Positions 1 through 22,951 of a stretch of DNA of 24,635 nucleotides are shown here, piece after piece. Origin of the DNA: a virus. The notes under the pieces were generated by a model. It saw only the letters and a program-made list of their open reading frames with translations. It was not told the DNA's origin and searched no databases. Each line of letters starts with the position of its first letter. Position 1 is the stretch's first letter. The translations under genes and the position numbers were made by a program. The stretch is taken from IMG/VR virus record IMGVR_UViG_3300044535_002404, positions 1-24,635 of that record. One strand, written 5' to 3'.

Positions 1-366
1 TGCAAAAGAGCAGAGAATAGAAAGCATCATTAGATTACGAAACGGTACATAATTAACCGGCTGTGGATCACCAAGAACATCTTTAGTCTGAGCAACAGCA
101 ATATCATTATTGGTAATTGAAGAGCTAATAGCAATCTCACCAAAGAAGCTTAGATCAATGTTTCGGTGATAGATATTAATCTCTGGGTACTTTTCCTTTA
201 AAGTATTAACAGATTTAGTTGCACAAGCCAGCTCATTCGTAGCATGACGCTGACCGTAATAAAAACTAATCGCGAAGATATCTGAATAGGTCTTAGATGC
301 AGCAGCATCATAAAGCATGACCGTTGAATCAATGCCACCACTAACAGGAATTACACACTTACTCAT
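1..366 (-). CDS. queC: QueC, 7-cyano-7-deazaguanine (preQ0) synthase, partial (N-terminal 122 residues)
   Basis: The reading frame starts at 366 and runs off the left edge of the window. Residues 9-16 are SGGIDSTV, the ATP-pyrophosphatase PP-loop typical of QueC. Near residues 105-109 there is VPFRN, which corresponds to the VPGRN segment of bacterial QueC with Gly replaced by Phe. QueC converts 7-carboxy-7-deazaguanine to preQ0 using ATP and ammonia. The zinc-binding C-terminus lies outside the window. Together with folE, queD and queE further along it completes the GTP-to-preQ0 route. It is separated from the uvsX block by a terminator and appears to have its own promoter, with a -10 element exactly 6 nt before the ATG. 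Family identity is clear; whether the full-length protein is intact cannot be seen. Confidence 0.9.
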   Translation of the reverse strand, partial: MSKCVIPVSGGIDSTVMLYDAAASKTYSDIFAISFYYGQRHATNELACATKSVNTLKEKYPEINIYHRNIDLSFFGEIAISSSITNNDIAVAQTKDVLGDPQPVNYVPFRNLMMLSILCSFA

Positions 367-372
367 ACACAC

Positions 373-401
373 AGTATATATGAAAACAAAATTAAGGGCA
401 A
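373..401 (-). promoter_or_regulatory. Sigma70-like promoter of queC, flush with the start codon
   Basis: On the minus strand TTGCCC (396-401) is followed after 17 bp by TATACT (373-378) and after 6 more nt by the queC ATG at 366. The -35 hexamer lies inside the stem of the preceding terminator. The predicted transcript would begin at the ATG. Placement matches several other genes here; the -35 match is only moderate. Confidence 0.5.
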
Positions 402-423
402 CAAGTTTTATATCGTTGCCCTT
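394..423 (-). terminator. Rho-independent terminator after the uvsX block
   Basis: A perfect 9-bp stem (AAGGGCAAC / GTTGCCCTT, 394-402 and 415-423) with a 12-nt loop is followed on the minus strand by the T-rich run AATTTTGTTTT. It sits just downstream of the small ORF that ends at 437 and just upstream of queC, so it separates the replication block from queC. On the plus strand the stem is followed by a T run too, so it could also stop antisense transcription. Confidence 0.8.
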
Positions 424-436
424 TTTCGTTGAAGTC

Positions 437-508
437 TTACTTACCCTTCTTGACTTCCTTCTTTACGTCCTTTACAACTTCCTTCTTGATTTCTTTAGTC
501 TTGGCCAT
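437..508 (-). CDS. Lysine-rich 23-residue micro-protein overlapping the uvsX end
   Basis: A short frame starts at 508, overlaps the last 14 bp of uvsX and stops at 437, just before the terminator. The product is 23 residues with about 11 Lys, alternating K/E/V pairs (for example KKEVVKDVKKEVKK), consistent with a short charged amphipathic helix. It is preceded by GGAGGGGG with about 10 nt to the ATG, a Shine-Dalgarno-like sequence of a kind not seen before the other starts I inspected. That sequence also encodes the acidic uvsX tail, so part of the signal may be coincidental. No family is recognised. It could be a real phage micro-protein that interacts with UvsX or DNA, or a chance frame. 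Confidence 0.45.
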   Translation of the reverse strand: MAKTKEIKKEVVKDVKKEVKKGK

Positions 509-1640
509 CTTCAACACCCCCTCCCTCATCTGGAAACTCTTCATCGATTTCGATGTTAGCACTTGTGCTGGAGTTACCATATTTGTATTTTTCCTTAATT
601 ATCTTTTCTACTTCAGGGATGATTTTATTGTCCCAGAAATTTTTGTCCTCCTTAAATTTGCTATAGTAACCTAACTTGGTTCCATCTGGCAAAGTATACG
701 TGCTTCCGGTTTGAATAATAACACCATGGTTAACAGCAAGACCGAGAATGCCAGCATACTTATCGAGGCCAGTAAGGAAGTTCAGATACATTTCTGCTTC
801 AAGATAAGGAGGCACAAATCTGTTTTTTACAGTAAGAGCTCTGAGAGTAACACCACTATAGTTTTTAGCCTCAGGGAGCATCTTATCGTTTTCGTTTTTA
901 TCGTCCTGCTTTTCAGAACGGCTGGCTAATTGCACAAGCAAACTAGCCATGTAAATTGGACCAGAGCCACCAGACTGCTTCTTTACAAGCGTCGGATACA
1001 TAGCAGCAGGGTCATCGTAAGTATGGTTACTGAATAGAATAGTAGTTCCAGTACGAGCAGCCTTGTAAGTCAAAGTTCTGAGCATTGACTTCAATTGCTT
1101 GGCTCTCAAACCCATATCGCCAGCTGACTTACCAGCCTCAGCGTCATTGAGTTCTTTCTGTGCAGACAAGTTACCTAGCGAATCAATGCTAATAATAAAC
1201 TTACCCTTTAAACTAGGATTCTTTTCAATACCATCGAGTAGAGCAAAGATCTGATTACGGCAATTTTCAACAGTATCAACAGGTACATGCTTTGTCTTTT
1301 TAGGATCAAGACCAACATTTTCTGCACCACGACTCTCAACAGCAATTTCAGTATCGAAAATGACTGGGATCATTCCCTTCTTCTGAGCATTGCCGAGAAT
1401 CTTGTTGATAATATAGGTCTTACCTGTCTGAGATGGTCCAATAAACCCTGTGATTCGGCCCTTTGGAATACCTCCAGTTAGGAGAGACCCTGACATAATG
1501 GCGTTAAGTACATAACAGCCTGTATCGATAAATTCACTAACTTCAGAAAGCGTTTGTTCTGAAAGATAGTTTGCTTCAGGATTAATTTTGTTTAATGCTT
1601 CAAATACGTTATCAATTGCTTTTTGCGTTTCTTTACTCAT
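495..1640 (-). CDS. uvsX: UvsX, RecA-like recombinase
   Basis: This 381-residue protein is a RecA/Rad51-fold strand-exchange ATPase of the T4 UvsX type. It forms filaments on single-stranded DNA for recombination-dependent replication and repair. Visible motifs are Walker A GPSQTGKT (residues 68-75), the VIFDTE segment around 93-98 that carries the catalytic glutamate, and the Walker B-like FIISIDSL (149-155). The C-terminus is strongly acidic (DEEFPDEGGGVEDGQD), as is common for UvsX. Length is close to T4 UvsX (about 390). It lies downstream of the DNA polymerase and a small protein, an arrangement seen in other T4-like phages. Its start is supported by a promoter whose -10 ends 7 nt before the ATG. 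Confidence 0.93.
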   Translation of the reverse strand: MSKETQKAIDNVFEALNKINPEANYLSEQTLSEVSEFIDTGCYVLNAIMSGSLLTGGIPKGRITGFIGPSQTGKTYIINKILGNAQKKGMIPVIFDTEIAVESRGAENVGLDPKKTKHVPVDTVENCRNQIFALLDGIEKNPSLKGKFIISIDSLGNLSAQKELNDAEAGKSAGDMGLRAKQLKSMLRTLTYKAARTGTTILFSNHTYDDPAAMYPTLVKKQSGGSGPIYMASLLVQLASRSEKQDDKNENDKMLPEAKNYSGVTLRALTVKNRFVPPYLEAEMYLNFLTGLDKYAGILGLAVNHGVIIQTGSTYTLPDGTKLGYYSKFKEDKNFWDNKIIPEVEKIIKEKYKYGNSSTSANIEIDEEFPDEGGGVEDGQD

Positions 1641-1647
1641 ATTTTCT

Positions 1648-1675
1648 ATTATATTGTTTTCTATTTGTTATTCAA
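1648..1675 (-). promoter_or_regulatory. Sigma70-like promoter of uvsX, flush with the start codon
   Basis: Minus strand TTGAAT (1670-1675), 16 bp, TATAAT (1648-1653), 7 nt, then the uvsX ATG at 1640. The -35 overlaps the stop codon of the upstream gene. A perfect -10 with 16-bp spacing makes this one of the better sites in the window; it predicts a leader of 0-1 nt. Confidence 0.6.
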
Positions 1676-2054
1676 ATAGTTTAACAACTTTAGCTGCAGT
1701 ACCCGCAGCAGCAGGAGTTACCTGGCGCTCAGGAGTAATGATCTTGGAGTTGCTAAACATTCTCTCGTACTGGCTGACCAACTTATCATCCAAGTCGAGT
1801 TCTGTTGCCTCCACCACACTCTTGGCACTAAACTTCCATACAGTCTTAGGCTCTTCCTTGTTCTTTAGAAACTCTCCAAAGAAGTAAGGCAACACCTGGA
1901 CCTGTAGCTGGCCAGAGCTAGGGTTCGGCACAATATTTATGATGGCTGGGTTCTTAACGAAGAAATACTTTTCTTCACGTGAAACAAGCTCACCATAGAT
2001 GTTACGACCAACGTTATCAACGAATACAATTAGGTTTTTCTTTTCCATACTCAT
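1668..2054 (-). CDS. Small conserved-looking phage protein between gene 43 and uvsX (unknown function)
   Basis: A 128-residue frame. The first 70 residues read as short beta-strands separated by turns (LIVFVDNVGRNIYGELV, EEKYFFVKNPAIINIV, QLQVQVLPYFF), reminiscent of the small beta-barrel (Lsm-like) proteins that many T4-like phages carry, but I cannot confirm this without a search. The C-terminal third is Ala/Val-rich and ends VVKLFE. A similar small gene between polymerase and uvsX is, to my knowledge, common in marine T4-like phages. Two in-frame starts exist, 2054 and 2048; a TATATT box lies exactly 6 nt before the second, favouring MEKKN as the N-terminus if leaderless. Real gene; function not known. 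Confidence 0.75.
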   Translation of the reverse strand: MSMEKKNLIVFVDNVGRNIYGELVSREEKYFFVKNPAIINIVPNPSSGQLQVQVLPYFFGEFLKNKEEPKTVWKFSAKSVVEATELDLDDKLVSQYERMFSNSKIITPERQVTPAAAGTAAKVVKLFE

Positions 2055-2084
2055 AATATATAAAGGCTTTTTTCAAGATTTCAA
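2055..2084 (-). promoter_or_regulatory. Possible sigma70-like promoter of the small gene before uvsX
   Basis: Minus strand TTGAAA (2079-2084), 18 bp, TATATT (2055-2060), then 6 nt to the ATG at 2048. The 18-bp spacing is longer than elsewhere in the window, so confidence is moderate. The -35 overlaps the end of the polymerase gene. Confidence 0.4.
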
Positions 2085-8804: not shown

Positions 8805-9311
8805 CTAGGCTTCGTTATAATTATCTTCCCTGTCAGGATCGATATAAACACAATCACCGTTAGGTAAGGATTGCATAGCCTCTCTAAACTGCGCTTCTTG
8901 ATAAAGGGCTATAGTGTCTTTCTCTTTCTTTTCTTTCTTAATTCTAGTGATAAATGCGTGGAATGCAATGGTTGTAAAGTAACTAAACGGGTTATAATTG
9001 TAGCCGTTTTTATCCTTGGTCTTAACGTTAAACTTCTTATTCTTTAGGGCTGTATACATCTTTACGACAGCATCACCAACCATGTCGTCTCGATAAGAAT
9101 AATTAATAAAATTAGGTGCGTAAGAAAGACCTTTTGCAATCTTATAGATAGATTCTGCCAAATAATCGTTTATTTCTCCGCTCTTATAATAGTCTTTTAT
9201 CTGCCTATAAAACTCTTTAGGATCAACGTAAAATTGTTCTTTGGGTGGCTTGGATGTTGGATCCATCACAAAGGTTTCAGGTTTCTTAATTTTTGGTAAA
9301 TTATTTTTCAT
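8805..9311 (-). CDS. 55: gp55-like late transcription sigma factor
   Basis: A 168-residue protein resembling T4 gp55, the sigma70-family factor that directs host RNA polymerase to late promoters (TATAAATA). Recognisable segments are YYKSGEINDYLAESIYKIAK (about 41-60), GLSYAPNFINYSYRDDMVGD (61-80) and NPFSYFTTIAFHAFITRIKK (107-126), the region 2-like core of the family. The longer frame from 9386 would be buried in uvsW; I chose the ATG at 9311, which overlaps the uvsW end by 11 bp. Its expected recognition motif is found upstream of several genes in this window, which supports the call. T4 gp33 and the clamp, which act with gp55, are not seen here. Confidence 0.9.
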   Translation of the reverse strand: MKNNLPKIKKPETFVMDPTSKPPKEQFYVDPKEFYRQIKDYYKSGEINDYLAESIYKIAKGLSYAPNFINYSYRDDMVGDAVVKMYTALKNKKFNVKTKDKNGYNYNPFSYFTTIAFHAFITRIKKEKKEKDTIALYQEAQFREAMQSLPNGDCVYIDPDREDNYNEA

Positions 9312-10743
9312 GGCAGTTAGTAAAGGTATGTGGTATTTTCTCTTGATTGTAAAGCTGCTTTCTTTTTTGATAGTGCTGCATGCCATACTTTAGGTTATCA
9401 GCAATGTCAATAATGATAAGCTCTTTCTTATCTTCGTGTAATCGTAATCCACGACCTATTGATTGTACTATCTTTACCTTCGCTTTTCCACCTCCAGCAA
9501 AGATTAAATAGTGAAGATTTTTGATATTAATACCTGTCGAAAATATTTTAGAGATAGCAATTACACAAACGTTAGTTTGCTTCTCCATTAAGGTCTGAAC
9601 TCTCTTACGTTCTTCTACTTCTACTTCACCTCTGATGAAATAAACCTCTTTAGTAGTAGAGCTTGTAGTAATTTTATCATAAATGGCTTGACCGTGGTCA
9701 ATTAAGTCCACAAGAACAAGAGAGTTATTGTCAAACTTGTTAACTAGGTGATTGATAACCCCATTACGAAAATCGTTTGTTAGCAAGAACTTCAGCTCAG
9801 CAATATACTCATCAGCTGGTGTGCTGTCTTTAGTTCTTTCAAATTGAGGGCCAGTTTTATAATTAATAACAAGAGCAGTTACCTTGGCTGGAGTAACATA
9901 ACTCTCAGACTTTAGCTCGTGAGACATCTTGGAATAAATTCTATCTCCAAACTTAGCAAAAATATTCCATTGATCTAATACCTCTTCAGGCAAGGTACCA
10001 GTAAAGCCAAACTTATGAATAGTATAGATCTTTTTAATAATGTCGTTGATCTTATTGCCTCTACGAACTTTGTGAACCTCGTCAACAATGAGAAGATCAA
10101 CGCTTTCCGTCCATTCAGTATCGGATATCTCAGATTGTAAGATACCCATATTAGCAATAATTACATTTGTACTTAAATCCAACTCAGAACTACCTGTCCA
10201 AGTACTATAAGTAAAGCTAACGTTATAATCTTTAAAGTCATTAAACGATTGATTAACAAGACCTAAATCAGGCACAATGAGAAGACATTTAAAGTTTGGG
10301 TTTTGATGATAAATGTTTTCTAGGATAGAAGACATTATGAGAGTCTTGCCACCCGCGGTTGCTAACTCGATAATACCAAAACCAGATTTTAAAGCAGTTT
10401 GGACTACATCGGTTTGATAATCACGTAAATCAAGACGTAATTTCTTATCAAGGTAGTCTAGCTTTAATTTGGGTGAGAATAACTTTTTAAAGCTCTCTGT
10501 TAAGACAATTTCAGTTGGGTCTTCACTTTGTTGAGCGTATTTTTGAAGAACAGTATGGAAATGAGGTTCTATTCTACCAGTTGGTGTAATAACATATGTT
10601 CTTTCCGGTGCAAAGAAACCCCGTTTACGAGCAAAGACAGCAGTCTTATTTTTTATAGAGAAGTGTTCTCTAACTGCTTTAAAGTCTCCACTTAAAGAAG
10701 CAGTATTACGTCTGTTATCAACATCAATGGTTAAAACCGTCAT
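9301..10743 (-). CDS. uvsW: UvsW-like SF2 RNA-DNA/recombination helicase
   Basis: A 480-residue superfamily 2 helicase. LRDYQTDVVQ precedes Walker A ATAGGKT (128-134); DEVH is at 221-224; GFTGTL (motif III-like) follows; and QSIGRGLRL (motif VI) is near the C-terminus. T4 UvsW (503 residues) unwinds R-loops and branched DNA, shutting down origin replication and promoting fork regression. The start at 10743 overlaps the stop of the upstream uvsY-like gene by 4 bp. Confidence 0.93.
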   Translation of the reverse strand: MTVLTIDVDNRRNTASLSGDFKAVREHFSIKNKTAVFARKRGFFAPERTYVITPTGRIEPHFHTVLQKYAQQSEDPTEIVLTESFKKLFSPKLKLDYLDKKLRLDLRDYQTDVVQTALKSGFGIIELATAGGKTLIMSSILENIYHQNPNFKCLLIVPDLGLVNQSFNDFKDYNVSFTYSTWTGSSELDLSTNVIIANMGILQSEISDTEWTESVDLLIVDEVHKVRRGNKINDIIKKIYTIHKFGFTGTLPEEVLDQWNIFAKFGDRIYSKMSHELKSESYVTPAKVTALVINYKTGPQFERTKDSTPADEYIAELKFLLTNDFRNGVINHLVNKFDNNSLVLVDLIDHGQAIYDKITTSSTTKEVYFIRGEVEVEERKRVQTLMEKQTNVCVIAISKIFSTGINIKNLHYLIFAGGGKAKVKIVQSIGRGLRLHEDKKELIIIDIADNLKYGMQHYQKRKQLYNQEKIPHTFTNCHEK

Positions 10744-11153: not shown

Positions 11154-11159
11154 AAAGGA

Positions 11160-11187
11160 ATTATATACAATAAAAAACAGAATGCAA
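11160..11187 (-). promoter_or_regulatory. Sigma70-like promoter of the uvsY-uvsW-55-47-46 operon
   Basis: Minus strand TTGCAT (11182-11187), 16 bp, TATAAT (11160-11165), 6 nt, then the uvsY ATG at 11153. The -10 is perfect and the -35 weak. It is divergent from the late-type site of the 11200 gene and shares one base with it. Confidence 0.5.
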
Positions 11188-11194: not shown

Positions 11195-11199
11195 GTTAT

Positions 11200-12363: not shown

Positions 12364-12383
12364 GAATAAATCACCGTTACAAT
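12356..12383 (+). promoter_or_regulatory. Sigma70-like promoter flush with the GTG start of the 12390 gene
   Basis: TTGAAT (12356-12361), 16 bp, TACAAT (12378-12383), 6 nt, then GTG at 12390. The -35 overlaps the end of the GIY-YIG gene. Spacing matches the promoters of folE and queE exactly and supports the GTG start. Confidence 0.55.
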
Positions 12384-12389
12384 CTCGTT

Positions 12390-12923
12390 GTGGAGAAGAA
12401 AAAATATATAAAGAAGCTTAATCTTAACACGATTTCGTTAATAGATTTAAAATTCTTATTAGAAGAGGAAATTATACCACAGACGATAAGCGATGTTGTT
12501 GAGTACTACGGTCAATTATTTTCAATAAACACAGACCACCACAAACAGTTTTTCTACCACAACTTTATTAAGACAGTTTGTGAAATCTATAACAAAGAAA
12601 AAACATATTTTGCTTATGTTTTTTATTTTAACACTCAAGATAATTTATCAGATAAAGAGGTAGAATTATTAATTAGTAGATTAAACAAGACTTTACCTAT
12701 TGTTTTTTACTGTGATAAACTTCCATTTGAATGTATTGATGATAAGTTTAATTCAGGAGAAATGCAGGAATTAAAAGAAAAGCTAAAGATTCAGATAGAT
12801 AAAAAGAACAAAAAAGATTTTTCATTTAGAAGTATTAAAACATTCGCAAAGAAGTATAAATTAACGTTTTTATCAGAAGAGTACTTTAACGATCTGAAAG
12901 TAAAGCATGGATTGTATAAATAA
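12390..12923 (+). CDS. Hypothetical protein, Lys-rich, GTG start
   Basis: A 177-residue protein I do not recognise. It is rich in Lys, Phe, Tyr and Asn and lacks signal peptide or membrane segments. The C-terminal part (FSFRSIKTFAKKYKLTFLSE) is basic and could contact nucleic acid, but no motif is diagnostic. It starts with GTG, supported by the promoter placed 6 nt upstream. Codon use is AT-rich. Its end contains the late-type box of the next gene, so it is probably expressed earlier than, and independently of, the genes that follow. Confidence 0.7.
   Translation: MEKKKYIKKLNLNTISLIDLKFLLEEEIIPQTISDVVEYYGQLFSINTDHHKQFFYHNFIKTVCEIYNKEKTYFAYVFYFNTQDNLSDKEVELLISRLNKTLPIVFYCDKLPFECIDDKFNSGEMQELKEKLKIQIDKKNKKDFSFRSIKTFAKKYKLTFLSEEYFNDLKVKHGLYK
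12915..12922 (+). promoter_or_regulatory. Late promoter (TATAAATA), 5 nt before the start
   Basis: A perfect TATAAATA at 12915-12922, then exactly 5 nt and the ATG at 12928. It lies in the last codons of the upstream gene. It probably drives the 12928-14442 group late in infection. It is the best late-promoter match on the plus strand. Confidence 0.75.
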
Positions 12924-12927
12924 TAGT

Positions 12928-13389
12928 ATGAGTAAATTTGAGGAAACTCTTAACAAATACTACAGTCTTCTTGAGTATTCGTCAGCAGGTACTTTCGGCC
13001 AATCAGGCAATACAGGTATTAATCCTAATGCTAGCCCTATTAGACCATTGCCAGGTATGATGGATGCAGGTGATTTAGAACAAGATATTGACAAGACAAA
13101 AATTAGAGCTGGTACACCAAGATCTATTGCAAGATTACAACTTCAGGACAATGAAGGTGATATCAGAACTACAATTAACAAGCTAGCTGTAGGTAAGCCT
13201 TTGACTCAGCCTGAGCAAGAAATTGTTGCTAAGATAAAGACCATGAGTAAGATTAAGAAGACTGGTAATGTTAATTCCTTAAATCCGGATGTAGATAAAG
13301 AAGCCAATCTTTCAAAGACAGTAGTAAGCGATAACGTTGAAACCTTAAACAATCCAAATAGACCAAGAGTAAGCTATGCCCAAGCCTAA
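12928..13389 (+). CDS. Unknown late protein with capsid-targeting-like N-terminus
   Basis: A 153-residue protein starting at the ATG 5 nt after a perfect late box; a longer in-frame start at 12907 would contain the promoter. The N-terminus MSKFEETLNKYYSLLE is aromatic/amphipathic and ends in LLE, which fits the (L/I)xE site of T4-type prohead proteases. The rest is polar and low in complexity, rich in Asn, Ile, Thr and Pro, with no recognised domain. Late promoter, N-terminus and neighbours suggest a virion or head-core protein; this is inference. Confidence 0.7.
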   Translation: MSKFEETLNKYYSLLEYSSAGTFGQSGNTGINPNASPIRPLPGMMDAGDLEQDIDKTKIRAGTPRSIARLQLQDNEGDIRTTINKLAVGKPLTQPEQEIVAKIKTMSKIKKTGNVNSLNPDVDKEANLSKTVVSDNVETLNNPNRPRVSYAQA

Positions 13390-13816: not shown

Positions 13817-14442
13817 TGAAAACCTTTAATGAGATATACGAGGCAGTTGTAACTCATGCAGACTTAAACTCTAAGCAGAAGAAAGATGCTGCATACTTTA
13901 TATTTGGAAGAATGCATCCTCCAACAGCTGGTCATGACTACCTAATTAAACTCGCTAAAGAATACGCAGATAAAAATAACGCAGACTTCTATGTATTCTT
14001 ATCTCCAAGTGAAAAGGGAGATAAGAACCCTGTTCCATACAAAGCAAGGCTATCTGTATTTAAAACCAATCCAAACTACGCAGATATTAACGTTGTTGAA
14101 AATGATAGAATTACTACCCCTCAACATGCTGCAGGTTACTTACACAACGTTTTAAAATACCCTATTGTAAGCATAATTAGCGGTAGTGATCGTAAAGCTG
14201 ATAACGAAGAAACATTTAAGACTCCAATGAGAGATGGAACTAAGGTTGGTGTTGTTTCTCTAGGTGGTGAAAGAGCAATGTCGGGTAAAATAGATCCTAA
14301 TGATGTAAAAACAGTAAAGGGCTCTAAAGTAAGAGCCCTTGCTAAAGCTGGTGATTATTATGCTTTTAAAGCTGCATTGCCACCTGGTACAAGTGAAGAG
14401 GATGCCAAAACTTTATTCGACATCCTCAACAAGGCTAAGTAG
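13816..14442 (+). CDS. Nucleotidyltransferase (cytidylyltransferase/NadM-like) with possible capsid-targeting N-terminus
   Basis: A 208-residue enzyme of the HxGH nucleotidylyltransferase superfamily. FGRMHPPTAGHDYLI (about 30-44) carries the HxGH-type motif (here TAGH, with a His two residues before PP), FYVFLSPSEK follows the second strand, IISGSDRK is in the centre, and GSKVRALAKAGDYYAFKAALP near the C-terminus is the ISxTxxR-like loop. Such enzymes activate phospho-sugars, pantetheine or NMN with an NTP; the substrate is not predictable. It begins MKTFNEIYE, strikingly like the T4 capsid-targeting sequence with an I-x-E cleavage site, so it may be packaged in the head. The end overlaps the convergent FtsZ-like gene by 8 bp. 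Confidence 0.8.
   Translation: MKTFNEIYEAVVTHADLNSKQKKDAAYFIFGRMHPPTAGHDYLIKLAKEYADKNNADFYVFLSPSEKGDKNPVPYKARLSVFKTNPNYADINVVENDRITTPQHAAGYLHNVLKYPIVSIISGSDRKADNEETFKTPMRDGTKVGVVSLGGERAMSGKIDPNDVKTVKGSKVRALAKAGDYYAFKAALPPGTSEEDAKTLFDILNKAK
14317..14340 (-). terminator. Likely terminator of the folE-ftsZ-like transcript, inside the convergent gene
   Basis: A perfect 9-bp stem (AAGGGCTCT / AGAGCCCTT) with a 6-nt loop lies about 95 bp beyond the FtsZ-like stop. On the minus strand it is followed by TTTACTGTTTTTAC, an imperfect T tract; on the plus strand no T tract follows. The stem start AAGGGC is the same as in the terminator at 394-423. It sits within the coding sequence of the opposing nucleotidyltransferase. 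Confidence 0.55.
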
Positions 14443-15541
14443 ATAACTTCTTAAGCTCTTCTATTTTAGCGGTTGGTTTACCTAAACCACCGATTGCAGT
14501 AAAGATACTCAAGCCAGCCTTGTTACCTTTATAGATACCTTGGTGTACAGTTGAGTTGTTTTTCAATGTACGGGTAAGCTGCTCAAAAGCCTGATCAAGA
14601 TACTCTTGTGGAATATTGTCAAGAGCATTTGAATCTCCAACAACAACTGCAGCAGCAATGTTACCAGTACCGAGATCAATGCCACCAGACAAGATATTCT
14701 TCTTGAGGTTATCTCTCATAGCTTTAGAAATCTCAGTACCGTCAGACCATTGAGTAACTTGGGTTGCACCGAATACAATAATACCACTATCAAGCACTGT
14801 CTTATAATCCTTATTATCAAAAGAAGTATAGCTACTGTTCTTTGTAATAATGTTATTGAATAGATTGAATAGAGAACAGATGCTGTTGTTAGAAGTATTC
14901 CAGAACTGATTAATAGACAATCTTGGATAGATTGTATTAATCTTCTCATTATCAATAATAACCAATGGAGAAACAATTCCTTGATCTACGAGCTCAAGAA
15001 CCTCAGTTAAAGTCTTAAGAGCGTTCTCAGCACACTTCTTACCTTCAGTGTTCTTTGGCAAGGCTAAAAATACACCAACCTTTTCAGAAGTAGATTTAAT
15101 TGAATCTTGGTAGTCTTTAGCAATCTTAATTAGCTCAGTTGTTGTTCCAGAACCAGTACCACCACCAGCACCAGCGCAAACAAAAATACGATCAAAGTTA
15201 CCAGCAAAAGACTTTCTGAATAGATCAAGAACATCTTCTCTCTGTTCAATTAAAGCCTGTTTAGCAACTTCTCTATTCTTACCTGCTCCAGAATCAGTAC
15301 CAATCTTAAGCTTGTTTGGAACTTCAATTGTTGCCAAGTCTTGCTGAGCGGTATTAAGCACACAGGTTCTCTTGTAGCCAAGCTTGTGAAAGGTTTCAGC
15401 GATTCTTGAACCACCTTGACCAGCTCCAACAAAGCTAAACTTAAACCCTACTTGTATCTTGTCTTCAATGTCGGTATTAATTTCTTGACCAGGCATTGGA
15501 ATGTCTGGCAACTCCATATCGAAAGATGTATCATCACTCAT
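14435..15541 (-). CDS. FtsZ/tubulin-like GTPase
   Basis: A 368-residue protein of the tubulin/FtsZ superfamily. After a 30-residue polar N-terminal tail come the T1 loop VGAGQGGSR (38-46), T3-like IGTDSGAGKN (80-89), and the tubulin signature AGAGGGTGSGTT (123-134). PLVIIDNEKI (192-201) matches the FtsZ segment before helix 7, and SFDNKDYKTVL (240-250) aligns with the FtsZ catalytic loop NxDxxD, retaining both Asp (242, 245). GTP hydrolysis and polymerisation are therefore likely. It resembles FtsZ more than the PhuZ phage tubulins, which I judge from these motifs only. Phage tubulins position or segregate DNA or capsids; a role against host division is another option. A perfect late box lies 5 nt before the ATG, so it should be made late. 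Operon partners are folE and the unknown at 15550. Confidence 0.88.
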   Translation of the reverse strand: MSDDTSFDMELPDIPMPGQEINTDIEDKIQVGFKFSFVGAGQGGSRIAETFHKLGYKRTCVLNTAQQDLATIEVPNKLKIGTDSGAGKNREVAKQALIEQREDVLDLFRKSFAGNFDRIFVCAGAGGGTGSGTTTELIKIAKDYQDSIKSTSEKVGVFLALPKNTEGKKCAENALKTLTEVLELVDQGIVSPLVIIDNEKINTIYPRLSINQFWNTSNNSICSLFNLFNNIITKNSSYTSFDNKDYKTVLDSGIIVFGATQVTQWSDGTEISKAMRDNLKKNILSGGIDLGTGNIAAAVVVGDSNALDNIPQEYLDQAFEQLTRTLKNNSTVHQGIYKGNKAGLSIFTAIGGLGKPTAKIEELKKLST

Positions 15542-15546
15542 AATTT

Positions 15547-15554
15547 TATTTATA
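15547..15554 (-). promoter_or_regulatory. Late promoter (TATAAATA) of the FtsZ-like gene, 5 nt before the start
   Basis: Perfect minus-strand TATAAATA, then 5 nt, then the ATG at 15541. It overlaps the stop codon of the upstream gene, so the FtsZ-like gene can be transcribed late, independently of folE. Confidence 0.7.
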
Positions 15555-16118: not shown

Positions 16119-16775
16119 CTACTCTTCAGCCATTTTAATAAAGTCGTAAAACTCCTTGCGAGTCTTCTCGTCATCATAGAAGTCTCCAGACAGCTTAGAT
16201 GTAACCATATAACAACCTTGATGTCTCACACCTCGATTACAAGCACAAGTATGCTGAGCCTTAACAACAACTGCAACACCCTTGTTATGCTCGCAGACCT
16301 CGTTAATAGCCTTATGAATCTGCATCGTCAAACCTTCTTGAATCTGAGGTCGACGACCATAAAACTCAACAATACGATTGAGCTTACTCAAGCCAATAAC
16401 ACGACCTTCAAGACTAGGAATATAAGCAACATGCACCAATCCAGTAAAGGCCAAATGGTGATGGCTACACATACTAGTCAACGGAATATTCGTCTGAGAG
16501 ACGATGCCATCATAACCATCAGCAGGAAAAGAAGTAATCTTCGGCGGAGCCTCATAGCACCCAGAGATTAAATCAAACACGTACGACTTTGCAACACGTC
16601 GAGGAGTACCTGCGCTATTCGGATCATTACGCCAGTCAATGCGAAGAGCATCCAAAAAAGTCTCATATGCCTTAGCACCCTTGTCGATAATAGCAAGCTT
16701 TTGCTCTTCTGTCAAAGCCATAGAACTGTTAGCAGTCGGGAGGAGGTAATCTTTCTCTCTAATCTCATCATTCAT
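16119..16775 (-). CDS. folE: GTP cyclohydrolase I (FolE)
   Basis: A 218-residue enzyme that converts GTP to 7,8-dihydroneopterin triphosphate, the first step to preQ0 (and folate). SMCSHHHLAFTGLVHVAYIP (101-120) carries zinc ligands C103 and H106 and the catalytic His; GLSKLNRIVEFYGRRPQIQE (128-147) and the HTCACNRGVRH segment (175-185) with the third zinc Cys are all present. Length equals bacterial FolE (about 220). It is divergent from queD, with both promoters between them, which argues for coordinated expression and for a role in deazaguanine synthesis rather than folate. Promoter TTGACT-16-TATAAT lies 6 nt from the ATG. Confidence 0.95.
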   Translation of the reverse strand: MNDEIREKDYLLPTANSSMALTEEQKLAIIDKGAKAYETFLDALRIDWRNDPNSAGTPRRVAKSYVFDLISGCYEAPPKITSFPADGYDGIVSQTNIPLTSMCSHHHLAFTGLVHVAYIPSLEGRVIGLSKLNRIVEFYGRRPQIQEGLTMQIHKAINEVCEHNKGVAVVVKAQHTCACNRGVRHQGCYMVTSKLSGDFYDDEKTRKEFYDFIKMAEE

Positions 16776-16781
16776 ACGCCT

Positions 16782-16809
16782 ATTATAGAGACAAATTCGT
16801 TCAAGTCAA
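16782..16809 (-). promoter_or_regulatory. Strong sigma70-like promoter of folE, flush with the start codon
   Basis: Minus strand TTGACT (16804-16809), 16 bp, TATAAT (16782-16787), 6 nt, then the ATG at 16775. This is the best sigma70-type match in the window and predicts a leaderless folE mRNA. Confidence 0.8.
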
Positions 16810-16812: not shown

Positions 16813-16840
16813 TTGATTCTAGGAAAAATGTTCATAACAT
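16813..16840 (+). promoter_or_regulatory. Sigma70-like promoter of queD, back-to-back with the folE promoter
   Basis: TTGATT (16813-16818), 16 bp, TAACAT (16835-16840), 8 nt, then the ATG at 16849. Only 3 bp separate its -35 from the divergent folE -35, and the 11-bp palindrome TCAAGGCTTGA (16806-16816) spans both. Confidence 0.5.
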
Positions 16841-16848
16841 ATCTGAGT

Positions 16849-17544
16849 ATGAGATATTATTCCACGAAGGTTATTGAACTCGGAAGTGCTGCATTTCGTC
16901 AGCCTAATGCAAAGTCCCATTGCAGATTCATTCATGGTTATCGATTGGTTGGTAAATTTACGTTTACTTCTGATTCTCTTGACGGCAACAATTGGGTTGT
17001 TGACTTCGGAGACTTTGACGAATTGAAGGGATTCTTGCAGGAGAAGTTTGATCATACTCTCGTTCTTGCTAAGAATGACCCTGCTATGAAAGAGTTTGAG
17101 GCTCTTGAAAAGGCTGGAGCTGCCTCAATCGTTGTTATGGATGAAGGGGTTGGAATTGAGTTGTTTGCAAAGTATTGCTTTAATGCTGCAGATAGCTACG
17201 TGAAGCATAAGACTAGCGGTCGAGTTCGAGCTCATTCTGTTGAGGTGTTTGAGCATGAGAAGAACTCTGCTATTTATTCTGCTGAAACTGCTCAAGAATC
17301 TACAGCAGAAGTTGCTGATGAAGCTGAGGCTGCGCCTGCTAAAGGCAAAGGCAAGAAGGGTAAGACTGCTGAACCTGTCTGGGCTCCGCCTGCTAAGTCT
17401 GAAAAGCAGACTGAAGCCTTGGCTTATGACACAAATAAACCAGTTAGGGTTACCCCTAAGCAGACTGATGCTCCTCCGCAAGGGGTTCCAGTCGGTGGTA
17501 AGAATCGTCCTAGTACCTGGGACTTTGGTACTAAATGGGCTTGA
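16849..17544 (+). CDS. queD: QueD-like 6-carboxytetrahydropterin synthase with altered zinc site and long C-terminal tail
   Basis: A 231-residue protein. Residues 1-145 resemble QueD/PTPS, which makes 6-carboxytetrahydropterin from dihydroneopterin triphosphate: catalytic Cys25 in SHCRFIHGY, NNWVVDFGDFDELK (47-60), FDHTL with Asp68/His69 and VEVFEH (131-136). Of the three usual zinc histidines (AAH ... HGH) only one is kept: AAF at 16 and HGY at 29-31. The HGY variant appears, from memory, in other phage homologues, so the site may be rebuilt rather than dead. Residues 145-231 are a Lys/Ala/Pro-rich low-complexity tail ending WDFGTKWA, absent from bacterial QueD (about 120). In-frame starts at 16813 (TTG) and 16828 also exist; 16849 fits homology and the promoter. 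Confidence 0.82.
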   Translation: MRYYSTKVIELGSAAFRQPNAKSHCRFIHGYRLVGKFTFTSDSLDGNNWVVDFGDFDELKGFLQEKFDHTLVLAKNDPAMKEFEALEKAGAASIVVMDEGVGIELFAKYCFNAADSYVKHKTSGRVRAHSVEVFEHEKNSAIYSAETAQESTAEVADEAEAAPAKGKGKKGKTAEPVWAPPAKSEKQTEALAYDTNKPVRVTPKQTDAPPQGVPVGGKNRPSTWDFGTKWA

Positions 17545-17568
17545 ACTTAAGAGTGATTCCTATATCAT
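17541..17568 (+). promoter_or_regulatory. Sigma70-like promoter of queE, flush with the start codon
   Basis: TTGAAC (17541-17546), 16 bp, TATCAT (17563-17568), 6 nt, then the ATG at 17575. The -35 overlaps the queD stop codon. Confidence 0.5.
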
Positions 17569-17574
17569 TAAATT

Positions 17575-18306
17575 ATGAGTTCATTATTTCTCTCTGATGA
17601 CTTTGTCTTTGAAACTATCGAAGGTGAAGGTCATTTGGTTGGTAAGCCAAGCATCTTCATGCGATTGGCAATGTGCAACTTGACTTGCATCGGGTTTAAG
17701 TCTCCTGATTCTCCGTTTGGTTGTGATAGCTATGTTAGCTGGTCTAAGAAGAATAAGCTAACCTTTGAAGAGATCTTTAAGATCTTTGAAGATAATGATT
17801 ACCTAAATAAGTTGAAAGGCAATCATGTTCTTAAGATTACTGGTGGTGAACCTCTTATTCAGCAAAAGGCTTTGATTGAGTTTATTGAAGCCTTTTTCAG
17901 AAAGTTCGATTTCTATCCTGTTATTGATTTTGAAACTAACTGTACGATTAATCCTTCAAGTTTTTGGGAAAGTATAAATGCTACTTTTACTGTGTCTCCT
18001 AAGTTGTCTACTAACGGAGATCCAGAAGAGAAGAGATACGTTCCAGAGGTTATTGCTTACCACGCTAGTATCTACTCTTACTTTAAGTTTGTTGTGCAGA
18101 AAGATAGTGATGTTGAAGAGATTATCGAAAAGTATATCAAACCTTTTAGTATTACTGAAGATCAAATTTGGTTGATGCCTTGCTGTGGTTCTCGAGATGA
18201 GCATAATGCTGTTGCTCCTTGGGTAGCAGAGGTTTGCAAGAAGCATGGTTTTAACTTTAGTCCTCGATTGCAATTGGTCTTGTGGAATAAAGCTCTCAAG
18301 GTTTAA
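17575..18306 (+). CDS. queE: QueE-like 7-carboxy-7-deazaguanine synthase (radical SAM)
   Basis: A 243-residue radical SAM enzyme catalysing ring contraction of carboxytetrahydropterin to 7-carboxy-7-deazaguanine. FETIEGEGHLVGKPSIFMRL is the QueE N-terminal substrate-binding element and KITGGEPLI the SAM-binding GGEP motif. The cluster cysteines are C34, C38 and C50 (CNLTC ... GCD), giving CX3C-X11-C instead of CX3CX2C; non-canonical spacing is known for some QueE proteins, but this should be confirmed. Later motifs (DFETNCT, VSPKLS, KFVVQ) fit the family. It follows queD by 30 bp with its own promoter, and supplies the substrate of QueC. Confidence 0.9.
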   Translation: MSSLFLSDDFVFETIEGEGHLVGKPSIFMRLAMCNLTCIGFKSPDSPFGCDSYVSWSKKNKLTFEEIFKIFEDNDYLNKLKGNHVLKITGGEPLIQQKALIEFIEAFFRKFDFYPVIDFETNCTINPSSFWESINATFTVSPKLSTNGDPEEKRYVPEVIAYHASIYSYFKFVVQKDSDVEEIIEKYIKPFSITEDQIWLMPCCGSRDEHNAVAPWVAEVCKKHGFNFSPRLQLVLWNKALKV

Positions 18307-18972: not shown

Positions 18973-18995
18973 TAGATTTATCAATACATGAACTA

Positions 18996-19001
18996 TATAA
19001 T
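18996..19001 (+). promoter_or_regulatory. TATAAT box 6 nt before the 19008 start
   Basis: A perfect TATAAT at 18996-19001, then 6 nt, then ATG at 19008. No convincing -35 lies 15-18 bp upstream. Supported mainly because the placement matches the other flush promoters. Confidence 0.4.
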
Positions 19002-19007
19002 AGTATC

Positions 19008-19724
19008 ATGAGAATTGCCATTTCCGGTGCCCAGTGCATGGGCAAATCTACTCTGATTAAAGATTTTCTTGCTGAGTGGACTAACTATAAATCTCCAGAA
19101 AAGACATATAGAGATGTTTTAGTTGAAAAAGGTTTAACCCATAGCTCAAAAACTACTAAAGAATCCCAACAGGCTATTCTTGACTTTATGGTCAAGCAAC
19201 TAGAAGGTACTCGCAAAAGTGATAGAATTGTATTTGATCGTTGTCCGCTAGATAATCTCGTGTATTCTATGTGGGCCTATCATCACAACGTTGGAGATAT
19301 TGATTTTGACTTTATTAAGAAGTGTATCCCAGTTGTTCGTGATGCTCTAAAACATATTGATATTATTTTCTATATCCCAATTACAAGAGCAGCCAAGACT
19401 CCTGATATTCAAGAAGATGGTATGAGAGATGCTAACCCTTTTATGCGAGTTGAGATTGATAATCTCTTTAAGGTGTTTGCAATGGAAAATAGAGATAATC
19501 CAAAATCTAATTATTTTCATGCTGATGATCGACCACCTATTATTGAAACATACGGTGAGCGTAATGAACGTATTCAGATCATGAAGCTCTATCTTGATGC
19601 GGATGGAGACTCAATGGACCCTAATGCTAATATCTTTAACGATCCAAATCTCGGCATGGAAGATATTGAGGCCTTAGAAGCCTTGGCAAGACCTGAGCAA
19701 AAGAAACCTGAAAAAAATAAATAA
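19008..19724 (+). CDS. P-loop kinase / NadR-like AAA ATPase
   Basis: A 238-residue protein. Walker A is GAQCMGKST (7-15) near the N-terminus in IAISGAQCMGKSTLI, as in the NadR/Ttd14 AAA group and nucleoside kinases. FDRCPLDNLVYSMWAYHH resembles the DR-type active-site segment of deoxynucleoside kinases, and IDIIFYIPITR follows as the next strand. It probably phosphorylates a small metabolite; sugar, nucleoside or nicotinamide riboside are all possible. The C-terminal 40 residues are acidic then Lys-rich and look unstructured. The next two genes (nucleotidyltransferase and HAD phosphatase) suggest a shared nucleotide-sugar or nucleotide pathway. Confidence 0.75.
   Translation: MRIAISGAQCMGKSTLIKDFLAEWTNYKSPEKTYRDVLVEKGLTHSSKTTKESQQAILDFMVKQLEGTRKSDRIVFDRCPLDNLVYSMWAYHHNVGDIDFDFIKKCIPVVRDALKHIDIIFYIPITRAAKTPDIQEDGMRDANPFMRVEIDNLFKVFAMENRDNPKSNYFHADDRPPIIETYGERNERIQIMKLYLDADGDSMDPNANIFNDPNLGMEDIEALEALARPEQKKPEKNK
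19716..19723 (+). promoter_or_regulatory. Possible late-type box (AATAAATA) before the 19733 gene
   Basis: AATAAATA at 19716-19723 overlaps the stop of the kinase gene and lies 9 nt before the next ATG. The local sequence is a run of A-rich lysine and stop codons, so a chance match is quite possible. Confidence 0.3.
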
Positions 19725-19732
19725 AGAGACAT

Positions 19733-21055: not shown

Positions 21056-21063
21056 AATAAATA
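21056..21063 (+). promoter_or_regulatory. Late-type box (AATAAATA) before the basic protein at 21070
   Basis: AATAAATA at 21056-21063, then 6 nt and a GTG start at 21070. Supports the GTG start and late expression. Confidence 0.5.
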
Positions 21064-21069
21064 ATTGTA

Positions 21070-21285
21070 GTGAACAAGTACGAAAAGAGATTTTTTACTC
21101 TTTTAGAAAAAACCACCCGCACCACTCCGCGAGGTGGTAAAGGTACTCTTAAAGCTAAAGCTACCAAGAAATTCGGTAAAGGCAAGATGACTTGTAGCAA
21201 GGCTAGAAAGCTAAAAACCAAAAAGGCTACTGCTCATACAAAAGCACAGTCTAATTGGTTTTTAAATTTTCATTGCAAAAAATAA
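21070..21285 (+). CDS. Very basic small protein, candidate head-packaged internal protein
   Basis: A 71-residue protein beginning with GTG. The N-terminus reads NKYEKRFFTLLE, sharing YEKRFF with the 11200 protein and ending in LLE, a possible prohead-protease site. The remaining 58 residues are about 40% Lys/Arg (GGKGTLKAKATKKFGKGK; SKARKLKTKKATAHTK), with two Cys. After cleavage it would be a small histone-like polycation, as expected for a protein packed with DNA in the head. A late-type box lies just upstream. No domain family recognised; a DNA-binding role is inferred from charge only. Confidence 0.65.
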   Translation: MNKYEKRFFTLLEKTTRTTPRGGKGTLKAKATKKFGKGKMTCSKARKLKTKKATAHTKAQSNWFLNFHCKK

Positions 21286-21288
21286 ATA
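21281..21288 (+). promoter_or_regulatory. Late-type box (AATAAATA) 5 nt before the 21294 start
   Basis: AATAAATA at 21281-21288 overlaps the upstream stop codon and is exactly 5 nt from the second of two tandem ATGs (21294), the same spacing as at 11200, 12928 and 15541. Confidence 0.5.
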
Positions 21289-21293
21289 CTATG

Positions 21294-21509
21294 ATGAAAG
21301 AATTCAATAACAACTTCAATAAATTACTCGAGAACTATGCCCCGTTAAGAACACAGTCTCGATTATTTTATCCAAGAAATCTAAAGTTGTCTGAAGAGTT
21401 TATTACAAGCTTCAAAAGCGAGTACAATAGACTTTTAAAAGAAGGAAATCATCCTAAAAAGATTATGGAAAAGATTTCCAAAGCTCTTAAGTTTCACATC
21501 AACGGTTAG
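21294..21509 (+). CDS. Small protein with capsid-targeting-like N-terminus
   Basis: A 71-residue protein. The first 13 residues MKEFNNNFNKLLE are aromatic/amphipathic and end in LLE, a possible prohead-protease site; the rest is helical and basic (FKSEYNRLLKEGNHPKKIME). Tandem ATGs at 21291 and 21294 are both possible; the late box 5 nt upstream favours 21294. A longer frame from 21255 would overlap the upstream gene and contain the promoter. The stop overlaps the convergent phoH gene by 11 bp. Function unknown; head-packaging is inferred. Confidence 0.65.
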   Translation: MKEFNNNFNKLLENYAPLRTQSRLFYPRNLKLSEEFITSFKSEYNRLLKEGNHPKKIMEKISKALKFHING

Positions 21510-22185
21510 ACTTAAGTTCATTAAGCTTACCAACAATAAACTTTAAGATCTTACTTCTTTTAATATCATCTTCTGTGAGAGTGAAGGATTGAATGCCAAC
21601 ACTCTTACATTCCTCACTATTAAACTTAGCTACAACATTTCCGTAGCTCTTCTTATCTCTAATATCTACTTGGTTACTATCTCCGATAACAACAAGCTTT
21701 CCGTGTTCTCCAAGACGGGTTAGAACAATGATGAGCTGATCGAGTTCAGCATTTTGAGCCTCATCTAGCAATACAATCTTATCATGGAATGTAGTACCTC
21801 TCAAGAAGTTAAGAGGCTGAATATCTAAAGCGCTTTCAGATGCTAACTTAGTAATTGCAGCCTCTGAAATCATTTCGCTAAGCTTTTCCAAAAATGGGGC
21901 TCCAAACGGACCAATCTTCTCATGCAACTCTCCAGGTAATGAACCTAGTTTTTGACTAGAACATTCAGCAATGCTTCTCAAATAAAGAATGCTCTTGAAG
22001 CTCTTTCTTTGAACAAGTTTTAAGGCTGCTAATACAGCACAGTATGTCTTGGCTGAACCTGCTGGTCCATCAATAAAGATAAGCTTATTGTCTCTATCTA
22101 ATATAGCATCTACAATCCGTTTGTGATTTTCAGAAAGCTCAAACTTCTCTGCTACATTAAATGTCTTTGGAGTTTTGGATGACAT
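21499..22185 (-). CDS. phoH: PhoH-like ATPase
   Basis: A 228-residue PhoH-family P-loop protein. Walker A GPAGSAKT is at 40-47, LRSIAECSSQKLGSLPGEL (69-87) matches the family-specific segment, and Walker B IVLLDEAQN at 137-145 is followed by IGDSNQVD. PhoH genes are widespread in marine phages; the proteins are thought to be RNA-associated ATPases or helicases with uncertain roles. The start at 22185 is preferred over the TTG at 22191. Upstream is a TATATC box 7 nt from the ATG without a clear -35. The gene lies alone between convergent and divergent plus-strand genes. Confidence 0.93.
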   Translation of the reverse strand: MSSKTPKTFNVAEKFELSENHKRIVDAILDRDNKLIFIDGPAGSAKTYCAVLAALKLVQRKSFKSILYLRSIAECSSQKLGSLPGELHEKIGPFGAPFLEKLSEMISEAAITKLASESALDIQPLNFLRGTTFHDKIVLLDEAQNAELDQLIIVLTRLGEHGKLVVIGDSNQVDIRDKKSYGNVVAKFNSEECKSVGIQSFTLTEDDIKRSKILKFIVGKLNELKSNR

Positions 22186-22211
22186 AATCAAAGATATATA
22201 TGTATATTTAG

Positions 22212-22239
22212 TTGAAAATCCAAATTTTTACTTTAAAAT
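22212..22239 (+). promoter_or_regulatory. Sigma70-like promoter flush with the 22247 start
   Basis: TTGAAA (22212-22217), 16 bp, TAAAAT (22234-22239), 7 nt, then ATG at 22247. Both hexamers match consensus at 5 of 6 positions. Supports 22247 over the upstream in-frame start at 22175. Confidence 0.6.
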
Positions 22240-22246
22240 AAAATGT

Positions 22247-22951
22247 ATGTTCTTACTACATGAGGAAACTGACCCACCTATTATATGGGCTGAAAACTTT
22301 CTTCCAAGAGCTGTTGTTGATACTATCTATAAAGAAATGACTGATATCAAACAGTATTTTGGTACCCCTGTTTGGAAATTTGGAGATGGTGCAACAAGAC
22401 AGCAAGATACTTCTACTGATTTTGAAACAACTAAGAATAATTTAAACCATCTTTGTTGGGGTAGTGATGTTTGGCTTCCTGATCATAACATTCCAGCTGG
22501 CTATGCATTAAACAACCTTGATAAGTTTTTCTTTCATCAAGGCATACTCAAGTTTATGGGTCAATGCAAGAGTAGAGAGTTTCAATTGGGTTCTCGATAT
22601 GGTCTTAATGGAAGAACTCATATTATTAGCTACGGTAATGGTGATTATTATAATTGGCATTCTGATGATGGAATTTACGGTCTTTCAATTAAAGGTAAAG
22701 AAGTAGCTATGACACCTGTCTTTACCATGTCGTATACTCTTGTCAAAGATGAATCTCTACTTAAGGGTGGTAGCCAGCTGTTTATGCATGAGGGTAAATG
22801 TTATGAATACCCTCTTAAAAATAATTTCTTATGTATTTTTCCATCTAGATTACCGCATGCTTGCTCAGAAGTAATCTGTGATCCAGCTATGCCTTGGGAA
22901 AATAATCGGTTTAACCTCCAAATATGGACTTGTCAAGATGATAGAAACTAA
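22247..22951 (+). CDS. Fe(II)/2-oxoglutarate-dependent dioxygenase-like protein
   Basis: A 234-residue protein with a double-stranded beta-helix pattern. YYNWHSDDG (134-142) supplies the HxD pair (H138, D140), RLPHACSEV (201-209) the distal His (H204), and NNRFNLQIW (219-227) the Arg that binds 2-oxoglutarate (R221), the order and spacing expected for prolyl-4-hydroxylase/PKHD-type phage enzymes. KGGSQLFMHEG is the intervening strand. It likely hydroxylates a protein side chain or modified base; the substrate cannot be read. It overlaps the following glycosyltransferase gene by 14 bp, suggesting a hydroxylate-then-glycosylate sequence (inference). Confidence 0.82.
   Translation: MFLLHEETDPPIIWAENFLPRAVVDTIYKEMTDIKQYFGTPVWKFGDGATRQQDTSTDFETTKNNLNHLCWGSDVWLPDHNIPAGYALNNLDKFFFHQGILKFMGQCKSREFQLGSRYGLNGRTHIISYGNGDYYNWHSDDGIYGLSIKGKEVAMTPVFTMSYTLVKDESLLKGGSQLFMHEGKCYEYPLKNNFLCIFPSRLPHACSEVICDPAMPWENNRFNLQIWTCQDDRN

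Follow-up and report, generated by a model that had tools for sequence, protein, structure and literature searches.

Can the promoters of a phage be set so close to its start codons that transcription and translation would begin at the same base? This question is raised by the IMG/VR virus record IMGVR_UViG_3300044535_002404, a complete virus record of 24,635 bases and a contig of a T4-like phage, which was analyzed at its full length (hereafter the window). A preliminary description of this DNA had listed sigma70-type promoters lying directly against the start codons of several genes and had attributed this to a host or phage that favors leaderless initiation. We conclude with high confidence that the window represents an uncultured T4-like lineage in which many promoters of both the early and the late type have been moved against start codons, with messenger RNAs (mRNAs) that are predicted to be leaderless. 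The promoter geometry, the lack of Shine-Dalgarno sequences, the split between temporal classes, the start-site signature and the recurrence in relatives were all obtained directly, while "leaderless" is used throughout as a prediction from promoter geometry and a pyrimidine signature at -1.

The gap is defined here as the number of nucleotides (nt) between a promoter element and the start codon, and a site is called flush when its gap places the predicted transcription start (+1) at or near the ATG. The following sigma70-type sites were located in the window:
366-401, minus strand: queC flush promoter, TTGCCC-17-TATACT-6-ATG366 (-35 at 396-401, -10 at 373-378).
1640-1675, minus strand: uvsX flush promoter, TTGAAT-16-TATAAT-7-ATG1640 (-35 at 1670-1675, -10 at 1648-1653).
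2048-2084, minus strand: weaker flush site, TTGAAA-18-TATATT-6-ATG2048.
11153-11187, minus strand: uvsY flush promoter, TTGCAT-16-TATAAT-6-ATG11153 (-35 at 11182-11187, -10 at 11160-11165), which can equally be written TTTGCA-17.
12356-12392, plus strand: flush promoter, TTGAAT-16-TACAAT-6-GTG12390.
16775-16809, minus strand: folE flush promoter, TTGACT-16-TATAAT-6-ATG16775 (11/12 consensus).
16813-16851, plus strand: queD flush promoter, TTGATT-16-TAACAT-8-ATG16849, read from the sequence.
17541-17577, plus strand: queE flush promoter, TTGAAC-16-TATCAT-6-ATG17575.
18973-19010, plus strand: weaker flush site, TAGATT-17-TATAAT-6-ATG19008, before an AAA_28/dNK-like kinase gene.
22212-22249, plus strand: flush promoter, TTGAAA-16-TAAAAT-7-ATG22247, before a 2OG-Fe(II) oxygenase gene.

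All eight promoter spacings in the preliminary description were found in the sequence as given there, and its two weaker cases (2048 and 19008) were located at their spacings too; for queD the start meant is ATG 16849, the first start codon of the open reading frame (ORF) at 16813 being overlapped by the -35. The description had also held that so regular an offset was unlikely to be chance, and a count within the window agrees. ATG or GTG follows at gap 6-8 in 9 of the 19 TTG-(16/17)-TA...T sites that depart from TATAAT by at most one mismatch, where gaps 13-40 lead one to expect 1.5, although two of the nine (GTG 22123 and GTG 16678) are intragenic and spurious. Promoter-like sites per se are not in excess over shuffles (47 vs 38.2 and 38 vs 39.8), so the unusual feature is their position. 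Separately, the queC promoter overlaps a terminator-like hairpin at 394-423, and upstream of uvsX at loci L025-L029, L031-L033 and L059 what looks like a terminator hairpin of the preceding gene likewise appears to overlap the next -35 (by eye); these appear to be compact terminator-promoter fusions.

A second class of flush elements, of T4-late type, was absent from the preliminary description:
11188-11202, plus strand: ATAAATA 5 nt before ATG11200, an in-frame start of ORF 11182-11448.
12915-12930, plus strand: TATAAATA 5 nt before ATG12928, an in-frame start of ORF 12907-13389.
15539-15554, minus strand: TATAAATA 5 nt before ATG15541 of the FtsZ/TubZ-like gene.
21057-21072, plus strand: ATAAATA 6 nt before GTG21070.
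21282-21296, plus strand: ATAAATA 5 nt before ATG21294, an in-frame start of ORF 21255-21509.

The earlier sigma70 framing therefore holds for the sigma70-type flush promoters but is too narrow for the trait, which covers T4-late-type promoters as well. Two side observations concern these genes: the window of this T4-like phage encodes an FtsZ/TubZ-like GTPase (14435-15541) behind a perfect late-type flush element, and the small ORFs at 11200 and 21070 have similar N-termini (..YEKRFF..), each preceded by a late-type element.

The two gaps differ, and yet they point to the same base. The sigma70 -10 lies at -12 to -7, and a 6-nt gap places +1 on the A of the ATG. The T4 late promoter, served by gp55, gp33 and gp45, has the consensus TATAAATA at -13 to -6 (PMC1524935), so that a gap of 5 nt likewise puts +1 on that A. 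This geometry was counted in a pooled set of 220 loci (L001-L140 and L152-L231) from at most 142 contigs, L063-L140 being pieces of ten contigs. As our first per-gene counts rested on a simple gene caller, the pooled counts were made free of gene calls on 30,447 non-redundant ATGs, each followed by an open frame of about 30 codons; redundancy was reduced for identical 30-mers alone, and near-identical relatives are thus counted more than once. ATAAATA occurred at gap 5 in 235 cases, compared with 4-10 at each of gaps 0-4, 62, 39, 26, 29, 19 and 17 at gaps 6-11, and 6-14 at gaps 12-19. Counting offsets over many genes, as the preliminary description had proposed, also gave a sharp sigma70-type peak: a -10 within one mismatch stood at gap 6 in 407 cases vs 149-254 at gaps 12-25, and upstream of the gap-6 set TTG peaked at spacers 16 (79) and 17 (64) against 2-19 at other spacers, which is the pattern of a sigma70-type hexamer pair separated by 16-18 nt. 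Counts of TTG at spacers 16/17 fell to 28/14 at gap 7, 4-16 at gaps 8-11 and 2-12 at gaps 12-25, so the sigma70-type sites peak at gap 6 and have a lower shoulder over gaps 7-10, and leadered sites (gaps 12-25) are near background. Upstream of gap-5 ATAAATA there is no TTG peak at spacers 16-17 (6 and 4 of 235) and a slight excess at 14-15 (10 and 13), so that the element stands without a -35, as a T4-like late promoter does.

Bacterial RNA polymerase prefers to start on a purine (+1) preceded by a pyrimidine (-1), and the flush starts carry this signature. C or T precedes the ATG in 94% of the 235 late gap-5 sites and 87% of the 143 sigma70 gap-6 sites. For comparison, the share is 51% among open ATGs as a whole, 52% in 781 operon-internal genes and 67% over the 2,704 called genes, a set that includes the flush ones. 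At neighboring gaps it was 56, 69, 58, 72 and 74% for late gaps 6 to 10, and for sigma70-type sites 75% at gap 5 (n=16), 71% at gap 7, 52% at gap 8, 70% at gap 9, and 47 and 35% at gaps 11 and 12. The pooled peaks were counted on ATG, so the predicted transcripts would begin with a 5'-terminal AUG; a few flush genes use GTG (12390 and 21070 in the window, and gp15 in contigs G001, G005 and G008). The lack of strong Shine-Dalgarno sequences at flush starts, also noted earlier, was borne out, with 0/143 at sigma70-flush and 8/235 at late-flush starts.

The pattern was then counted contig by contig. The window matches G001, a 230-kilobase (kb) contig whose UvsX and UvsY are both 100% identical to those of the window and in which the upstream sequences of the window are found again (comparison by eye). 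Among its 208 called genes, 12 have a flush bipartite sigma70-type site (gap 6-7) vs 0.4 in 60 dinucleotide shuffles, 35 a flush late element vs 1.0, and 49 any flush site vs 4.7, while a Shine-Dalgarno sequence precedes 6 vs 10.2 in shuffles, and 0/81 and 0/29 genes in the nearest relatives. An ATG stands exactly at +5 for 33 of its 119 ATAAATA copies (background 1.89 per position, P about 3e-29). When 6-mers were scanned without prior choice (minimum 20 copies, lowered to 8 when +6/+7 was scanned), TAAATA ranked first for ATG at +5 and ATAAAT for ATG at +6. The exact 8-mer TATAAATA alone gives a weak signal (4/26) because its first T is poorly conserved, and the 7-mer ATAAATA was used instead. 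The +5 count was 23/119 in G005, 14/105 in G011, 8/38 in G006, 9/69 in G012, 9/87 in G010, 7/38 in G002, 4/25 in G003 and 5/32 in G004. Restricted to open ATGs, late gap-5 sites (expected in brackets) numbered 32 (0.82) in G001, 22 (1.00) in G005, 14 (0.61) in G011, 9 (0.54) in G010, 9 (0.21) in G012, 8 (0.29) in G006, 5 (0.32) in G004, 3 (0.11) in G003 and 2 (0.79) in G008. Sigma70-type sites at gap 6-7 numbered 22 (2.44) in G005, 20 (2.11) in G001, 12 (1.44) in G008, 7 (0.89) in G011, 6 (0.22) in G003, 6 (0.56) in G004, 4 (1.67) in G010 and 4 (1.44) in G012. Before any ATG or GTG, irrespective of frame, the bipartite sites of G001 number 17 (gap 6) and 13 (gap 7) for a background of 4.29, compared with 5 and 6 (4.07) in the cultured pelagiphage HTVC008M and 1 and 0 (1.32) in Syn9. 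Stretches of 50 kb from Cr30 (0/1), C48C1 (0/8) and phiM12 (0/11) hold few motifs and are little informative on ATAAATA-5-ATG. As a side observation, G010 and G012 each have 12 -10-like hexamers at gap 11, a second peak for which we have no explanation.

The two promoter classes divide by gene class. Across T4 homologues in six contigs, structural genes with a flush site had 9 late and 0 sigma70-type elements, and replication and other genes had 1 late (nrdB) and 6 sigma70-type elements (Fisher P = 0.0009); this table allowed any in-frame ATG or GTG within 45 nt of the called start and leaves out the 122 of 138 T4 homologues without a flush site. The late-type elements thus lie upstream of structural genes, as T4-like late promoters do. 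A candidate for the cognate factor is encoded in the window:
8805-9386, minus strand: homologue of gp55, the late sigma factor of T4-like phages, recognized via the G001 copy, which stands beside uvsW as in the window.
That G001 copy matches gp55 of HTVC008M at 64.7 bits, the window ORF itself had no Pfam or NCBIfam match, and phmmer found a gp55 homologue in 6/6 large contigs. The gp45 clamp gave weak matches in only G001 and G005 of the six, and may be too divergent for the search.

Recurrence is also seen at a single gene and across more distant loci. Upstream of uvsX, 55 of 62 relatives were readable, and 27 have a -10 within one mismatch at gap 5-8; a flush bipartite site (-35 within two mismatches of TTGACA) is present in 18/55, representing about five different upstream sequences, while the other 9 of the 27 have no good -35 and many of the remaining relatives look operon-internal by eye. 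The late rule in the uvsX loci holds at 14/77 (background 1.47) in the 60-70% identity band and 17/128 (2.3) below 50%, and is weak at 85% identity or more (3/27, background 0.38). The claim that a host or phage favors leaderless initiation is supported as a trait of the phage lineage, with peaks across relatives. This does not extend to a preference of the host, the capsid gene of many relatives being preceded by a structured region whose purine-rich stretch is Shine-Dalgarno-like in 24/80.

Several results weigh against our conclusion. The major-capsid gene is not flush and is an exception. In the best 80 of at least 578 gp23 loci, ATAAATA is absent within 50 nt of gp23 in 78 (one has it at gap 6, one at gap 14), although elsewhere in these same loci the late-flush rule is strong, 120 of 436 ATAAATA having ATG at +5 over a background of 5.7. 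Since ATAAATA lies within 180 nt in only 2 of 65 distinct upstreams, the gp23 promoter was not found, and gp23 may be read from upstream. Many gp23 upstreams carry TGAGG-loop-CCTGA, then GGTCGA and a purine-rich stretch before the ATG, forming a conserved structured region about 60-100 nt before gp23 (L160, L166, L170, L175, L226, L231 and others). The hairpin covaries in 30 aligned leaders, with 23 cells changed on both sides vs 10.1 when shuffled (0/500 as high); four gp23 loci were compared with Rfam and gave no match. Of the 80 loci, 24 have a strict Shine-Dalgarno tetramer before gp23. Beyond the capsid, many genes have no recognizable flush promoter: in G001 it is present at 13/46 divergent heads, 13/63 genes more than 60 nt behind their neighbor, 12/26 at 21-60 nt and 11/73 at 20 nt or less. 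Nor does every relative conform. G008 shows no excess of ATAAATA with ATG at +5 (3/121, background 2.7), G006 is without sigma70-flush sites (0 vs 0.44 expected), G010 and G012 have few of them with a poor -1 signature (1/4 each), and in the uvsX-region loci the late-flush excess is missing at 70-85% (0/13) and 50-60% identity (2/67, background 1.49). Some relatives keep Shine-Dalgarno sequences (G006 8/78 vs 3.6, G005 20/242 vs 13.0). The -1 pyrimidine is also raised at late gap 11 (94%, n=17) and sigma70 gap 10 (74%, n=31), T4 itself has 4 frame-free bipartite sites at gap 6 and 2 at gap 7 vs 1.57, and none of the six contigs gave a match to gp33, which is short and may be too divergent for the search.

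Could the geometry have a more ordinary origin? In a compact genome, intergenic space may simply have shrunk, leaving meaningless leaders of 1-8 nt in phages of a host that needs no Shine-Dalgarno sequence. The shoulder of sites at gaps 7-10 fits this, as does the rarity of Shine-Dalgarno sequences throughout (36/630 genes, 24 in a control window). However, the offset has a single-base peak in two promoter classes of differing geometry, with the pyrimidine signature at -1 of the ATG, and the pattern is absent from the T4 and Syn9 stretches examined (100 kb each), so we regard this explanation as very unlikely. The AT-rich motif could instead be a non-Shine-Dalgarno enhancer of translation initiation and no promoter at all, given that Shine-Dalgarno motifs are lacking and that AT-rich initiation regions are common among AT-rich phages. 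However, the -10 at gap 6 is coupled to TTG at spacers 16-17, the second class is the known T4 late promoter and is divided by gene class, and most genes close behind a neighbor lack both motifs (in G001, 11/73 have one); this makes the proposal extremely unlikely.

The remaining doubt concerns the start codons. If the promoters are real but the true starts lie further downstream, the mRNAs would be leadered and the flush ATG unused, and it is true that start calls came from a simple caller and that some genes offer several possible starts (2054 and 2048, for example). Yet Ala or Ser is the second codon at 106/211 late-flush ATGs vs 14% (3,315/23,185) of open ATGs, so the late-flush ATGs are mostly real starts. 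The nine ATAAATA-5-ATG sites of HTVC008M all fall on independently annotated starts, and the uvsX ATG lies within 2 codons of the alignment-expected place in 32/55 relatives, the others being 4-8 codons off. We consider downstream starts the least probable of the three, with a next to negligible chance of being right.

From promoters moved against start codons we infer where transcription starts, which polymerase and sigma factors are used, how the messages are translated and what benefit may follow. For early and replication genes, TTGA..-16/17-TATAAT would be used by the host's RNA polymerase and main sigma factor; for late and structural genes, ATAAATA would be used by RNA polymerase that has the gp55 sigma of the phage. 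In both classes +1 would fall on the A of AUG, so that the first gene of a transcript would be leaderless and initiated without Shine-Dalgarno pairing. A 5'-terminal AUG can be read by 70S ribosomes or by an IF2-dependent route. Downstream operon genes, which overlap or abut, would be reached by coupled termination-reinitiation, and the major-capsid gene, preceded by its structured region, would be excepted. More tentatively, a branch of the T4 superfamily that is widespread and uncultured may have given up Shine-Dalgarno-led initiation for nearly all transcripts, with early and gp55 late promoters base-exact at AUG and a covarying structured leader retained for the capsid, amounting to a two-tier translation program. 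If this were true, 70S-type leaderless initiation would serve most of the proteome and a regulated high-output leader the capsid, perhaps aided by a phage initiator-like transfer RNA (tRNA) and immune to leader-directed nucleases or shut-off.

Gene content supports the placement of these viruses. The window encodes uvsX, uvsY, uvsW, DNA polymerase, gp46/47, the gp55 homologue, PhoH, folE, queD, queE, the start of queC and the FtsZ/TubZ-like gene, some names being assigned by position and homology to T4-like genes. All 12 genes of a T4-like core set (gp17, gp18, gp20, gp21, gp23, gp41, gp43, gp44, gp46, gp47, uvsX and uvsW) are present in G001 (gp23 truncated at the contig end), G008, G010, G011 and G012, and G005 has the set minus a gp20 match; on this gene content the window and its relatives are classed as T4-like phages, relatives of Kyanoviridae/Straboviridae. 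Among the matches listed, named relatives are about 28-37% identical overall: the nearest named UvsX is that of HTVC008M (34%), portals of cyanophages are at 31-33%, and polymerases of Phage C48C1, Caulobacter Cr30, a Sinorhizobium phage and HTVC008M at 29-33%. Scanning GTDB for UvsX by means of the alignment yielded a single distant match (30%, a contig of an archaeal metagenome-assembled genome) and no usable host, and an Rfam search of the window gave no match.

Relatives also carry translation genes. The tRNA-Met of G001 (L070:15310-15382) has a T1-T72 mismatch and shares 83% identity over 70 nt with an E. coli tRNA-Met that has C1-A72 and a GGG/CCC anticodon stem, which together are the marks of an initiator tRNA; that of G012 (G012:72695-72767) has C1-A72. 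Such initiator-like tRNAs would fit leaderless initiation but are not proof of it. G001 further has a transfer-messenger RNA at L070:2843-3222 (RF00023, 113 bits) on a contig with 24 tRNAs, and neither bS21 nor peptide deformylase had a match in 15/15 relatives, several of them fragments. A formyltransferase-domain protein of G001 was considered as Met-tRNA formyltransferase and set aside, its best score being PurN-like and all scores below cut-offs. Apart from translation, the window holds preQ0 pathway genes (folE, queD, queE and queC; 1-372, 16119-16775 and 16813-18306), to which G001 adds QueF and the PurN-like formyltransferase (L074:6886-9405); these probably serve 7-deazaguanine DNA modification, and the modified base may, we infer, be formylated.

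Leaderless mRNAs in phages are usually regarded as a minor mode, and this lineage could offer a natural system for studying what ribosomes do with leaderless messages when flux is high. Gene callers based on Shine-Dalgarno sequences may choose wrong start codons in these viruses (gp23-bearing stretches number at least 578), for which ATAAATA-N5-ATG and TTGA..-16/17-TATAAT-N6-ATG would provide a base-exact annotation rule.

How does this compare with known systems? For AR9, a jumbo phage of Bacillus, 5' untranslated regions (UTRs) have been mapped, and its authors note that leaderless transcripts are frequent in phages; its UTRs are 26-491 nt, so not leaderless, and it differs further in encoding its own RNA polymerases (PMC5312081). 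Our literature search (titles and abstracts, with subscription journals sparsely covered) turned up no paper that describes leaderless transcription for T4-like phages. The late elements resemble T4 late promoters in their motif with its poorly conserved first T, the structural genes downstream and the gp55 homologue. However, in 100 kb of T4 there are 0 ATAAATA 5 nt before an open ATG and 1/45 before any ATG, Shine-Dalgarno sequences precede 67/125 genes, and flush sigma70, late and any sites number 0, 0 and 0; the Syn9 stretches also differ (0/10 and 1/13 ATAAATA-5-ATG). HTVC008M is alike in its late half, with ATG at +5 for 9/45 ATAAATA, 8/9 with a pyrimidine at -1:
L141:6280, 7562, 19456, 31132, 49760 and 4 more: ATAAATA-N5-ATG sites of HTVC008M.
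It differs in that 77/171 genes look Shine-Dalgarno-led and there is no sigma70-flush excess (2 vs 1.89); its 171 called genes have 2 flush sigma70, 9 late and 16 sites of any kind. As it is cultured, the late half of the pattern is testable. The cI transcript of phage lambda from PRM is a leaderless mRNA, and leaderless transcripts are reportedly found in mycobacteria. Both are like the present case in having a -10 about 6 nt before the start, an mRNA (here predicted) that begins at AUG, and no Shine-Dalgarno sequence. The leaderless cases that we can name concern single phage genes or host promoters, whereas here two temporal classes, one of a phage-sigma type, show the arrangement genome-wide.

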